DNA of 64,000 bases, from contig NZ_CAMVDO010000009.1 in assembly GCF_947166265.1 (NCBI RefSeq), positions 1-64,000 on the forward strand, read 5' to 3'. Below are positions 61,147 through 64,000 of the stretch, piece after piece (positions within the stretch are counted from its first letter, which is position 1; every line of letters starts with the position of its first letter). The notes beneath the pieces are model-generated. The model had not been told where the DNA came from. It searched no databases and saw nothing but the letters and a program-made list of their open reading frames with translations. The position numbers were made by a program, and so were the translations under genes. The stretch is from an uncultured Fibrobacter sp. GTDB lineage: Bacteria; Fibrobacterota; Fibrobacteria; Fibrobacterales; Fibrobacteraceae.

Positions 61147-61181
61147 AGAAAACAGGACTTTTGACTAACGGAGAGGGTTTC

Positions 61182-61496
61182 ATGAAAATTGAATACAGGA
61201 GCAGAGAATTAGAATTATGCGCAATAGACGAAGCGTATGCCTTACGGCGCATGGGCAAAAAACGGGCGACATGCTACAATTTGCGAATAAAGGCAATCAA
61301 ATATGCCGAGAACTTTGAAATTCTGAAGACTGTGCCCGGAAATTTCCATGAACTTGTGGGCAACCGCAAGGGCCAATGGGCATGCAGCCTTGACCAGCCT
61401 TATCGTCTTATAATCAAAGGCGCAGAACCGAACGAATTTGTTATCTGGGCAGAACGGCACAATGCCGAAATTATGGAAATCGTAGATTATCATTAG
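61182..61496 (+). CDS. higB: HigB-type RelE-like toxin
   Basis: A 104-residue RelE/HigB-fold protein that probably cuts mRNA on the ribosome. Family features are NLRIKAIKYAENFEILKTVP, the core GQWACSLDQPYRLII and the C-terminus EIMEIVDYH. The ATG at 61182 is chosen because GGAGAGG precedes it. The antitoxin starts 12 bases after the stop, with toxin first, as in higBA loci. Confidence 0.86.
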   Translation: MKIEYRSRELELCAIDEAYALRRMGKKRATCYNLRIKAIKYAENFEILKTVPGNFHELVGNRKGQWACSLDQPYRLIIKGAEPNEFVIWAERHNAEIMEIVDYH

Positions 61497-61507
61497 CAGA
61501 GGTAAAC

Positions 61508-62518
61508 ATGCAGAAGAATAAGGAAGCTATCGTTTGGGGAATTACCCCGCCGGGAGCGTTTCTTGAAGAAAAACTTCAGGAAATGGGCCTCGATGTCAAT
61601 GATTTTGCAGCGCGTATCGGCTACACGCCTAAAACAGTGAACGAAATTCTGAAAGGCAAGTGCAACATAACTATCGAAGTCGCACATTCCCTAGATTACG
61701 CCACCGGAATCCCGGTCAGTTTTTGGCTTAACGCCCAAAAAGGGTACGAAGAAGAACTTATGAGACTTCAAGTCAAAGAAGCCGTCAAGAACCAGGCCGG
61801 TTGGCGCAAGTTCTTCCCTATCGGTGAACTCAATCCGCGCACATGGATCAAGGACTTCAACAACAAAGAAGACGGCGTGTCGCCCATCCTCAAGTTCTTC
61901 GGGGTGGCAAGCCCCAAGGCGTGGGAAAATTACTACTACAAGAACCGCCTGAAGGTGGCCTTCCGCATCTCGCTGGCCGAAACCGAAGACCCGTACGCGG
62001 CCTCCGTGTGGATGCGCCGCGGCGAAATCCTCGCCGACGAAATCAAGATGGAAAAGCAGAACGACAAGAAGCTGCGTTCCGCCATCAAGAAGGCAATGCC
62101 GCAATTCGTGGAACTGGCCAAAAACGATGTTGCCGCGTGGGAAGATTTACGCCGCAAGAAGGCCTTGCCCAAGCCGAAGGTGGGCGAAGACTTCATTGAC
62201 GACGGCATGCACAAGCTGCAGGAACTGGGCGCAAAGTTCGGAATCAAGGTACTCTACGCGCAGAACTTCAAGTCGGCGCCGATTCATGGCATGGCCCGCT
62301 GGTACAAGGACATTCCCGTCATCCAGCTTCACGACCGTTTCAAGGACCGCAATGCATTCTGGTTCACGTTCTTCCACGAGCTCGGCCACATCGCGCTCCA
62401 CGGCAAGAAGGACATCTTCATCAAGAACGTCTATTACGGCAACAAAAACCAGCAGAAGGACGACGAGGCAAACGCATTCGCGCAAAAATACATGACGCAG
62501 GCAGGGCTAGAAGTCTAG
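61508..62518 (+). CDS. higA: HigA antitoxin fused to ImmA/IrrE-type peptidase domain
   Basis: A 336-residue protein. The N-terminal HTH (about 20-80) reads DVNDFAARIGYTPKTVNEIL and TGIPVSFWL. The C-terminal domain has the zinc-peptidase motif HELGHIALHGKKD (about 297-309), as in M78 peptidases that cleave repressors. A Glu-rich tail closes it. The HTH should bind and repress the operon and the toxin, while the peptidase could act on a repressor or toxin. It is intact and in frame. Confidence 0.88.
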   Translation: MQKNKEAIVWGITPPGAFLEEKLQEMGLDVNDFAARIGYTPKTVNEILKGKCNITIEVAHSLDYATGIPVSFWLNAQKGYEEELMRLQVKEAVKNQAGWRKFFPIGELNPRTWIKDFNNKEDGVSPILKFFGVASPKAWENYYYKNRLKVAFRISLAETEDPYAASVWMRRGEILADEIKMEKQNDKKLRSAIKKAMPQFVELAKNDVAAWEDLRRKKALPKPKVGEDFIDDGMHKLQELGAKFGIKVLYAQNFKSAPIHGMARWYKDIPVIQLHDRFKDRNAFWFTFFHELGHIALHGKKDIFIKNVYYGNKNQQKDDEANAFAQKYMTQAGLEV

Positions 62519-62536: not shown

Positions 62537-62710
62537 ATGGCACAGGCAACAGTTTCCGCACGCATCGACAGCAAGGACAAGGAAAGTTTCGATAAGTTCT
62601 GCAGCAATGCAAGCGACATCGAAGCCCTCAAAAAAGGCATCGAACAGCTGAATGCCGGCAAGGGAATTGTAAAGACCATAGAAGAACTGGAGGCGATGGA
62701 GAATGGCTAA
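62537..62710 (+). pseudogene. DinJ/RelB-type antitoxin with internal deletion
   Basis: An open frame of 57 codons. It starts AQATVSARIDSKDKESFDKF, typical of DinJ. The tail reads IEALKKGIEQLNAGKGIVKT and ends in IEELEAMENG, also typical. The DNA-binding and dimerisation middle (about 30 residues) is gone, in frame, at FCSNAS. It overlaps the toxin remnant. The product may still bind a toxin but is shortened. Confidence 0.75.
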
Positions 62711-62821
62711 AATCGCTTTTTCGGAAGCCGCAGAATCGACGACGCAAACCGTCTGATTTATCGAATCAACGACGAATTTATCGACATTCTCTCGTGCAAA
62801 GGCCATTACGAGAACGTCTGA
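62703..62821 (+). pseudogene. YoeB/Txe-type toxin with internal deletion
   Basis: The start (MAKIAFSE) and the end (SRRIDDANRLIYRINDEFI and DILSCKGHYENV) are YoeB-like but lie in different frames. About 45-50 codons from the middle are missing. The catalytic His and Tyr near the C-terminus remain in HYE, but the frame breaks. The ATG lies inside the last codons of the antitoxin remnant. Confidence 0.78.
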
Positions 62822-62865
62822 CTAGGAAGGACGAAGCCTTTAAGTCAGATTGTTGCTTTTTTGTC

Positions 62866-62917: not shown

Positions 62918-63156
62918 TGAAAATAGAGTTTTCTCTTATTCTCAGCTAGAAATCTCGACAGTTTCCAGATATAGAGGATAGGACGAACGCTCACGTCTGC
63001 GGCAATTCTGTTGCCGTATCGTTTTGCTATAGGCAAATTGTATTTGCCTTTTAGTTACGCGACCTTTATTGGGGCGTGAGTTGTTTGTGTTTATTTGTAT
63101 CGGGCAGTCGAGAGCCTCTAGCTGGTAAATACATTCAACTCCACGCCTTTTTTATT
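62918..63156 (+). ncRNA. Candidate structured RNA, first copy, with terminator-like end
   Basis: A dense series of hairpins. They comprise AGAG-TTTT-CTCT, then the conserved motif 62935-62984 with a nine-pair closing stem (CTTATTCTC / GAGGATAGG), and then GACG / CGTC. CGGCAA / TTGCCG and the perfect AGGCAAAT / ATTTGCCT (63031-63049) follow. Last comes a long arm that pairs GGCGTG-AGTTG with CAACT-C-CACGCC and ends in six T at 63149-63154. Part of the conserved motif (CAGCTAGA, TCTCGACAG) can also pair with 63105-63125. No reading frame of note lies here. The direction is inferred from the T-run. Confidence 0.6.
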
Positions 63157-63194
63157 CAAAAAAATGGGTTGATTGCTGAATAAGGGTGAACTCG

Positions 63195-63330
63195 TACCGG
63201 AGTTTAACTCTTGTTCTTAGCTAGAAATCTCGACAATTTCTGATACAAAGAATAAGACTATGCTCGCCTACGCCTTTGTAATATATGGGTGTAGTGTATC
63301 CTGAGTGAATAGTATTCGCTCGGGTTTATT
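63195..63330 (+). ncRNA. Candidate structured RNA, second copy of the motif
   Basis: GAGTT / AACTC, then the second copy (63210-63258) with closing stem CTTGTTCTT / AAGAATAAG. CCTACGCC / GGGTGTAG follows, then CCTGAGTGAAT-AGT-ATTCGCTCGGG (63300-63324) and TTTATT. The conserved loop AGCTAGAAATCTCGACA is identical in both copies. Confidence 0.55.
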
Positions 63331-63334
63331 AGTC

Positions 63335-63370
63335 ATGCCATTGCGAACCTGTAAAGGAGAAGCAATCTCT
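63335..63370. repeat. ATTGC-type palindromic repeat
   Basis: CCATTGCGAA-CCTGTAAAGG-AGAAGCAATC, the same family as the copies around the GIY-YIG gene at 5.6 kb. Confidence 0.55.
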
Positions 63371-63462
63371 TGACTCATATTGCGAGTTTTGTTCTTTGAA
63401 ATGTCGTGCGTTTTGGCACTTGCGAGAGTGACTCGTTCACTTTCAGTAAGGAGTCAAATAAA

Positions 63463-64000
63463 ATGCCCGCCATTTTACGAGCTGCCAATCCATGGACACA
63501 AAAAAGCATCGACTACGCAGCAAACCTCCCCTATCTAGATGATTTGTACACAGTCTATCCTGTGGTACACGAAAATGTACGCAGAATAGATGAAAGAATC
63601 ATGCATCGCGTTGAAATGTACTTTAACGAGAGAGATAATTTCAATCTAATAGCCTCTCTGTTGGATTTAGACCTGTTTCCTGTAAAAGACAGTTATATTC
63701 CCTTCTTACGAAAATCAAAAGACGCCATTAGAAGAAATCCACAAATAATCAACCGCATCTGCGGGGATCTCTATGAAATGGGATTCAGGGAGCTCTATAA
63801 AAGATGCACCGAACCCAAAGAAGCCAATCGTCAAATGGGTCCCATGTTTCGCAATTGGCTTAATTCTGGGGCTTTAGGAATTAGACCTGTTCCTGAATCA
63901 GTTTTTGTTCGTAGTACAGGAAATGCAATTCTTGATGGATCCGACAGCTCAATGATGGATTATGCTAGACGGAATTTCGGATACAACCGAGAAAAGGGGC
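63463..64000 (+). CDS. Start of a gene resembling a type II restriction endonuclease (partial)
   Basis: An open frame with 179 visible codons, cut by the window edge. It starts MPAILRAANPWTQKSIDYAA, with AAGGAG upstream. Conserved-looking blocks are DSYIPFLRKSKDAIRRNPQI, RICGDLYEMGFREL, GPMFRNWLNSGALG and AILDGSDSSMMDYARRNFGY. The general pattern, with a GPMF-W-SGALG block before AILDGSD, recalls Tsp45I-like restriction enzymes from memory. The catalytic PD-ExK site would lie beyond the edge. It is more AT-rich than the chromosome core, and structured RNA sits upstream. The assignment is tentative. Confidence 0.45.
   Translation, partial: MPAILRAANPWTQKSIDYAANLPYLDDLYTVYPVVHENVRRIDERIMHRVEMYFNERDNFNLIASLLDLDLFPVKDSYIPFLRKSKDAIRRNPQIINRICGDLYEMGFRELYKRCTEPKEANRQMGPMFRNWLNSGALGIRPVPESVFVRSTGNAILDGSDSSMMDYARRNFGYNREKG

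Follow-up and report, generated by a model that had tools for sequence, protein, structure and literature searches.

In the window, a 64,000-nt stretch of a contig from an uncultured Fibrobacter sp. (NZ_CAMVDO010000009.1), two similar hairpin-forming motifs precede a restriction gene, which raises the question of what a structured and duplicated sequence does in this position. An earlier note had placed the copies at 62935-62984 and 63210-63258, where both are found, differing by ~8 transitions (about nine by the earlier count) and one inserted base. Both form a 9-pair stem (CTTATTCTC/GAGGATAGG and CTTGTTCTT/AAGAATAAG), in which one C-G pair is replaced by U-A through changes on both sides, and the folds of 146-nt stretches of copies 1 and 2 beat 200 of 200 dinucleotide shuffles (z -3.4 and -3.3). 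Since the same stem is ~93-99% canonical per pair in 83 non-redundant homologues, it is not a product of chance, and the selection on RNA structure proposed from the two copies is borne out. As judged from sequence comparison and modelled folds, the restriction-modification operon very probably carries a cis-acting transcription attenuator in its leader, with the motif as the 5′ half of this switch, and the RNA most likely represents a new family of such attenuators.

The leader of the restriction gene

Both copies lie inside a single ~540-nt leader (62919-63462) of a gene for a Tsp45I-type restriction enzyme, which confirms the suspected restriction gene (Table 1). The coordinates given earlier thus mark real copies but cover the element incompletely, as the RNA runs from ~62919 to a terminator at 63153 and the leader continues to the ATG at 63463. 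Copy 1 is the start of a ~230-nt structured RNA, in which two hairpins are followed by an intrinsic terminator. Its 5′ end probably lies near 62919, as suggested by a TATATT box and by conservation; a promoter scan at this end did not find a full sigma-70 match. The loop sequence of the motif is here termed the repeat (R1, R2, R3) and its complement the anti-repeat (R3′, R2′, R1′). The anti-repeat lies between the terminator arms, and its three segments are complementary to AGCTAGA, TCTCGAC, and GATATA of copy 1, as well as to the corresponding sequence of copy 2 (predicted duplex energies of -33.8 and -34.4 kcal/mol, respectively). The loop had been described as unchanged, and AGCTAGAAATCTCGACA is indeed identical in both copies of the window locus, but a comparison between loci shows the loop to change faster than any other part, with compensating changes in its pairing partner. 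The stem first noticed is one of two alternative states, and its conserved loop is half of a long-range helix with the anti-repeat inside the downstream terminator.

Table 1. Leader features and adjoining gene at the window locus, in window positions.
Feature	Position	Strand	Basis or remark
Copy-1 RNA, putative attenuator, probable 5′ end GAAAATAGAG to end of terminator U-run	62919-63153	+	Homologous along its length in the genus
H0 and S1 5′ strand (S1 5′ arm 62935-62943, the closing stem of the earlier note)	62926-62943	+	S1 ladder z 3.4
Repeat, copy 1: R1 62944-62950, R2 62953-62959, R3 62968-62973	62944-62973	+	Covaries with anti-repeat
S1 3′ arm	62974-62982	+	
Antiterminator strand CGCTCACG, partner of terminator 5′ arm	62988-62995	+	7 pairs, each canonical in 82-83 of 83 homologues
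Two variable middle-domain hairpins, 62998-63018 and 63030-63053	62998-63053	+	Predicted, MFE fold; missing in compact class III
Terminator domain: T1 arms 63071-63080 (GGGGCGUGAG) and 63139-63147 (CUCCACGCC); T2 arms 63086-63094 and 63125-63133; U-run (six T) 63148-63153	63071-63153	+	Consensus fold; T2 covariation z 5.1; T1 nearly invariant
Anti-repeat TGTATCGGGCAGTCGAGAGCCTCTAGCT: R3′ 63096-63101, R2′ 63107-63113, R1′ 63117-63123	63096-63123	+	Covariation with repeat
Element E, complementary to H0/S1 5′ strand of copy 1 and copy 2	63178-63193	+	Shuffle comparison
Copy 2: H0/S1 5′ strand 63200-63218, repeat 63219-63247, S1 3′ arm 63248-63256	63200-63256	+	Follows code of its own locus's anti-repeat
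Two class I leader hairpins, 63267-63294 and 63300-63324	63267-63324	+	
Hairpin AGTGACTCGTTCACT 63427-63441, just 5′ of ribosome-binding site AAGGAG 63448-63453	63427-63453	+	Recurs in class I leaders
Tsp45I-type restriction endonuclease gene, ATG 63463, continues beyond window	63463-64000	+	PF06300 E 3.3e-104

In a locus that extends further (L065), a second ORF overlaps the end of the Tsp45I-type gene and appears from its sequence to encode an N6/N4-type DNA methyltransferase. Just 5′ of the leader in the window, an apparently decayed YoeB/Txe-kind toxin gene (62704-62822) lies behind a small antitoxin-like ORF (62538-62711), and a fuller version of this toxin gene occupies the equivalent place in L003. 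Further upstream (61161-62518), a HigB-like/HigA-like pair was recognized by eye, consisting of a 111-aa ORF followed by one for a 336-aa protein that combines an HTH with a metallopeptidase-like HExxH motif.

Occurrence, architectures, and downstream genes

A 246-base query found matches in 37 of 37 Fibrobacter genomes examined. A covariance-model search of Fibrobacter genomes, which the earlier note had asked for, was carried out with the 84-nt 3′ module and matched 60 of 61 genomes, including 29 of the 29 high-quality ones. The model matches total ~420 over the 61 genomes, a few of them being palindrome shadows on the opposite strand, and correspond to ~400 occurrences of the RNA. Copy numbers range from ~1 to 20 per genome in Fibrobacter and close relatives; phylum-wide, four of 41 genera were positive, all within one family, with up to 24 matches per genome. 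Matches to a 17-mer outside Fibrobacter (L002, L004, and L005) were rejected, as no anti-repeat or terminator lies nearby, and viral, plasmid, and phage collections, which may hold few Fibrobacter records, gave no match to the RNA. The earlier note had recognized no known riboswitch, retron, or type III toxin-antitoxin RNA, and accordingly neither the window region nor 16 other loci match Rfam at gathering thresholds, with chance-level hits only below them. A retron or CRISPR-associated RNA likewise finds no counterpart here: besides the lack of an Rfam match, no reverse transcriptase or cas family is among those listed for the first downstream genes of about 93 loci. The sequence is a genus-wide multicopy leader RNA of Fibrobacter and close relatives that was previously uncatalogued.

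Three architectures emerged when 100 loci were fetched for comparison. Class I (41 of the 100, the window locus included) consists of the RNA with its terminator, a second copy of the repeat, and then the gene; this count accepts copy 2 at 38-62 nt past the terminator and excludes one false case (L114), a looser pattern having given 61 candidates. Class II has a single RNA with a long, hairpin-rich middle, and the gene often starts 10-90 nt past the terminator, while the compact class III has ~27 nt separating the repeat and the terminator domain. The longest downstream ORF is on the strand of the RNA in 96 of 97 loci, as compared with 37 of 96 for the upstream ORF.

Two of the three architectures most likely serve mainly restriction-modification genes. 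According to Pfam, 31 of 37 class I downstream genes belong to this group (19 C5 methylases, five Tsp45I, four EcoRI-type, and three N6/N4 methylases), and those of class III are chiefly type I, IIG, and III methylases, with a few others (UvrD, GTPase, EndoU). Class II, in which the tandem locus L164 was counted for these tallies, precedes Fib_succ_major proteins in 12 of 32 cases and otherwise zinc-ribbon/TM2 proteins, one MmeI-type enzyme, and others; lacking a common function, these genes suggest no signal. About half of the C5 methylase genes in six genomes stand behind such an RNA when positions are compared.

Several further features of these loci were observed. At class II loci such as L066, L067, and L074, the genes behind the RNA encode lipoproteins with a Fib_succ_major domain, which has been mentioned in connection with diversity-generating retroelements (PMC4159848). 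Class III RNAs occur as serial pairs 1.4-1.8 kb apart (L072/L073 on contig C48 of the window's own genome, L099/L112, L105/L110, L117/L119, and L098/L118). The two members differ in code and each precedes a gene of its own; one restriction locus can therefore carry serial attenuators. A recurrent 225-aa gene (MKIMNLYELALLLRAKLKMAKWPFNRYGFP), without a Pfam match in the tallies, directly follows a class III RNA and precedes the RNA of a type IIG enzyme at L119, L073, and L112. Class III loci such as L103 also carry a conserved GACATAGCCCCGTACCGAATGGTGCGGAGCGACC ~45-60 nt 5′ of S1, probably an extra 5′ hairpin, which is absent from classes I and II. In many class I leaders (e.g., L077, though not that of the window), a second hairpin resembling a terminator (GGCGAGGAG..CTCCTCGCC, followed by a T-rich tail) lies before the ribosome-binding site, ~170-210 nt past copy 2.

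Another explanation takes its model from type III toxin-antitoxin pairs and has the RNA act on the protein encoded downstream; in its favor, the structured motif is repeated and stands, with a terminator, immediately 5′ of a gene that may be self-damaging. This explanation is very improbable given that the downstream proteins come from many unrelated families, that two copies occur only in the tandem class and in different surroundings, and that the two-state pairings of the RNA point to control of transcription.

Two mutually exclusive folds

Across the aligned sequences, two mutually exclusive folds of the RNA are conserved. In the terminated form (fold B), the repeat lies in the S1 hairpin with R2 as the apical loop, the terminator hairpin holds the anti-repeat and has R2′, which is complementary to R2, as its apical loop, and the terminator stem is followed by six U. 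In the read-through form (fold A), repeat and anti-repeat pair over three segments in about 26 predicted bp. Nested inside this helix is a 7-bp antiterminator stem formed by the conserved CUCACG strand and the terminator 5′ arm, whose capture means that the terminator cannot form. From the topology, the full repeat:anti-repeat helix should be incompatible with the complete S1 and terminator helices, as it crosses each of them. A same-strand gene downstream, an intrinsic terminator whose stem and U-run are conserved in the family, and an alternative antiterminator fold, as expected of an attenuator, are all present.

Covariation statistics, also called for in the earlier note, were obtained from an alignment of 83 non-redundant members built without reference to structure. 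The nine top-scoring of all column pairs join repeat and anti-repeat and fall on three antiparallel ladders. Against a null in which sequences evolved along their own tree with column rates kept, these ladders reach z 15.8 (R1), 14.0 (R2), and 21.8 (R3), and the remaining ones 3.4 (S1), 5.1 (T2), 2.9 (antiterminator), and 0.6 (T1), the last being uninformative because T1 hardly varies. An independent count in 23 class III sequences found 22 of 30 pairs of the repeat:anti-repeat and antiterminator helices changed on both sides, with a covariation score of 0.558 vs. 0.046-0.118 in slid controls; for S1 and the terminator, the figures were 14 of 31 pairs and 0.259 vs. 0.066-0.101.

As the terminator 5′ arm pairs in the antiterminator stem as well as in the terminator, it has two partners, and changes within it can be followed on both. 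In L067 and L076, U85 has become C together with A73 to G and A151 to G, and in L076 the change of C83 to U is also matched on both sides. In the GTGGTGTGGG subclass (16 loci from two genera), nearly all members have CTCACAC or CTCGCAC as the 5′ partner and CCACAC as the 3′ partner; L168 retains one old partner through G-U. L150, L168, and L120 are imperfect cases, and the clean three-way compensations represent few independent events because many loci are close relatives. The mean energy difference between folds A and B is +0.6 kcal/mol in class I and -0.4 kcal/mol in class II (s.d. about 4), whereas in class III fold A is favored by 6.9 kcal/mol, so equal stability of the two folds is not universal.

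Two other explanations can be weighed against these pairings. A MITE-kind mobile DNA would be multicopy and intergenic, with inverted repeats (the H0/S1 strand against E, repeat against anti-repeat) whose ends lie ~270 bp apart, all of which is seen here. Nevertheless, such an origin is scarcely credible, as the element stands before the gene in one orientation in 96 of 97 loci, its terminator and antiterminator are conserved, and compensated repeat/anti-repeat differences among paralogues are unexplained by DNA mobility. The second explanation is a metabolite riboswitch, with the 5′ domain as a small-ligand aptamer and the repeat:anti-repeat helix as part of its fold or expression platform. 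The leader position, the terminator/antiterminator platform, and conserved junction bases would all suit a riboswitch, but the loops that would make the pocket are the most variable part, which lowers its likelihood. In addition, most of the conserved bases can be accounted for by S1, the inner hairpin, the antiterminator, or the terminator, no common pathway unites the downstream genes, and no Rfam model matches; a metabolite riboswitch is therefore considered rather unlikely.

The favored reading, a cis-acting attenuator, may be set out as a series of steps. The S1 hairpin would act as an anti-antiterminator, withholding the repeat from the anti-repeat so that termination proceeds. With R2 and R2′ both apical loops in fold B, a 7-nt kissing contact is possible, and the anti-repeat, as it is transcribed, would first touch the R2 loop. 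If S1 opens, this contact would zip up to the full duplex and transcription would continue into the genes. After read-through, fold A may be locked in place by element E, which could pair with the S1 5′ strand once this has been released. This element lies ~25-30 nt past the terminator, and its pairing to the H0/S1 5′ strand exceeds 95% of shuffles in 93% of class I, 53% of class II, and 43% of class III loci; in class I, it is able to pair with copy 2 too. As for the input that opens or stabilizes S1, a protein binding the conserved H0/S1 stem is a reasonable though tentative candidate, an unaided kinetic or stochastic switch is doubtful, a small molecule somewhat more so, and another RNA improbable.

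Private codes, copy 2, and related systems

In eight genomes, each repeat pairs with its own anti-repeat at a mean of -33.5 kcal/mol vs. -13.4 kcal/mol with those of other loci, and the own anti-repeat is the best partner in 66 of 67 cases. Such private codes could also arise from drift with compensation, without selection for orthogonality. Copy 2 in class I obeys the same code as the repeat and anti-repeat of its locus. This is illustrated by L079 and L081, in which the restriction genes are nearly identical (one difference in the first 180 nt) and the leaders differ at 22 of 526 positions outside the pairing segments but at 20 of 87 positions inside the repeat, anti-repeat, and second repeat, where the changes are in concert. 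The concerted change argues that the match of copy 2 to the anti-repeat is kept, although gene conversion from another code could also have produced it.

In the tandem form, copy 2 would offer the same anti-repeat a second partner, serving either as a further cis control step or as the site where the terminated RNA binds the mRNA leader. Folding of class I leaders revealed no role for copy 2. The Shine-Dalgarno sequence (SD), predicted to be half paired at the window locus and mostly paired in other class I leaders, is usually predicted paired whichever repeat is forced onto the anti-repeat; folding thus leaves a translational role of copy 2 unsupported, and a switch controlling ribosome access was rejected. 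A model in which a second promoter, located before copy 2, gives rise to a separate small RNA was also set aside, since the -10-like bases belong to element E and most loci outside class I are without copy 2.

It could also be supposed that the terminated copy-1 RNA is a trans-acting small RNA that binds copy 2 in its own mRNA leader and controls translation or stability, the private codes preventing cross-talk. In keeping with this idea, copy 2 remains complementary to the anti-repeat, the codes within a genome are orthogonal to one another, and in the terminated form both R2 and R2′ are apical loops. Yet the absence of copy 2 from most loci outside class I means that trans action cannot be the basic function, drift would produce orthogonality too, predicted SD access is the same with either repeat paired, and, with all pairing partners on one transcript, pairing in cis suffices. 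Trans action is hence regarded as unlikely, and cis-acting attenuation remains the preferred reading.

Like riboswitch- and T-box-type attenuators, the Fibrobacter element is a leader RNA in which antiterminator and terminator exclude each other and which precedes a gene on the same strand. It differs in that the antiterminator is a long three-segment duplex between a 5′ hairpin loop and sequence between the terminator arms, the code changes at every locus, a second repeat may follow in tandem, and no Rfam model matches. RNAI/RNAII and CopA/CopT are kissing-loop antisense pairs of plasmid copy control that are encoded on opposite strands. They share with the present RNA seven-base complementary apical loops, a contact that could extend to a longer duplex, and allele-specific codes, though kissing is inferred in this case, and here both partners lie on one transcript and are associated with chromosomal accessory genes. 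RNA-level control of restriction-modification genes is also exerted by the antisense RNAs of the EcoRI and Eco29kI systems, which come from reverse promoters on the opposite strand (PMC3874152, PMC12707154), in contrast to the repeat, anti-repeat, and copy 2, all on the + strand of one leader. Controller (C) proteins, as portrayed in two accounts (PMC6237814, PMC8053105), are similarly local control modules placed with the restriction-modification genes they would govern; the module here is an RNA instead of a DNA-binding protein and serves other genes too.

Neither "riboswitch" nor "attenuation" occurs in two reviews of restriction-modification regulation (PMC3874152, PMC12707154), and no report of a leader-RNA switch controlling restriction-modification genes was found in the literature searched, which took in few subscription papers. 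A structured-RNA survey (PMC2864571) has Fibrobacter only in a reference, and nothing relevant was found on Fibrobacter leaders or noncoding RNAs.

The attenuator probably serves to hold down a restriction operon that could damage its own cell until a given condition arises. In a more far-reaching and speculative version, which is thought improbable as a whole, a Fibrobacter genome would hold up to ~20 mutually orthogonal, self-paired RNA locks with ~20-bp private codes on its restriction-modification and accessory genes, and in the tandem form the terminated RNA would have its own mRNA as a trans target too. Several coexisting restriction systems would then be controlled by RNA only and without cross-talk, in an RNA-based parallel to controller proteins. 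The natural variants number in the hundreds and include three-way compensatory ones, so that the two-state model is directly testable by mutation. These RNAs bear on how bacteria with several restriction systems restrain potentially lethal enzymes, and, as mutually orthogonal natural switches, they might serve as gene-control parts.
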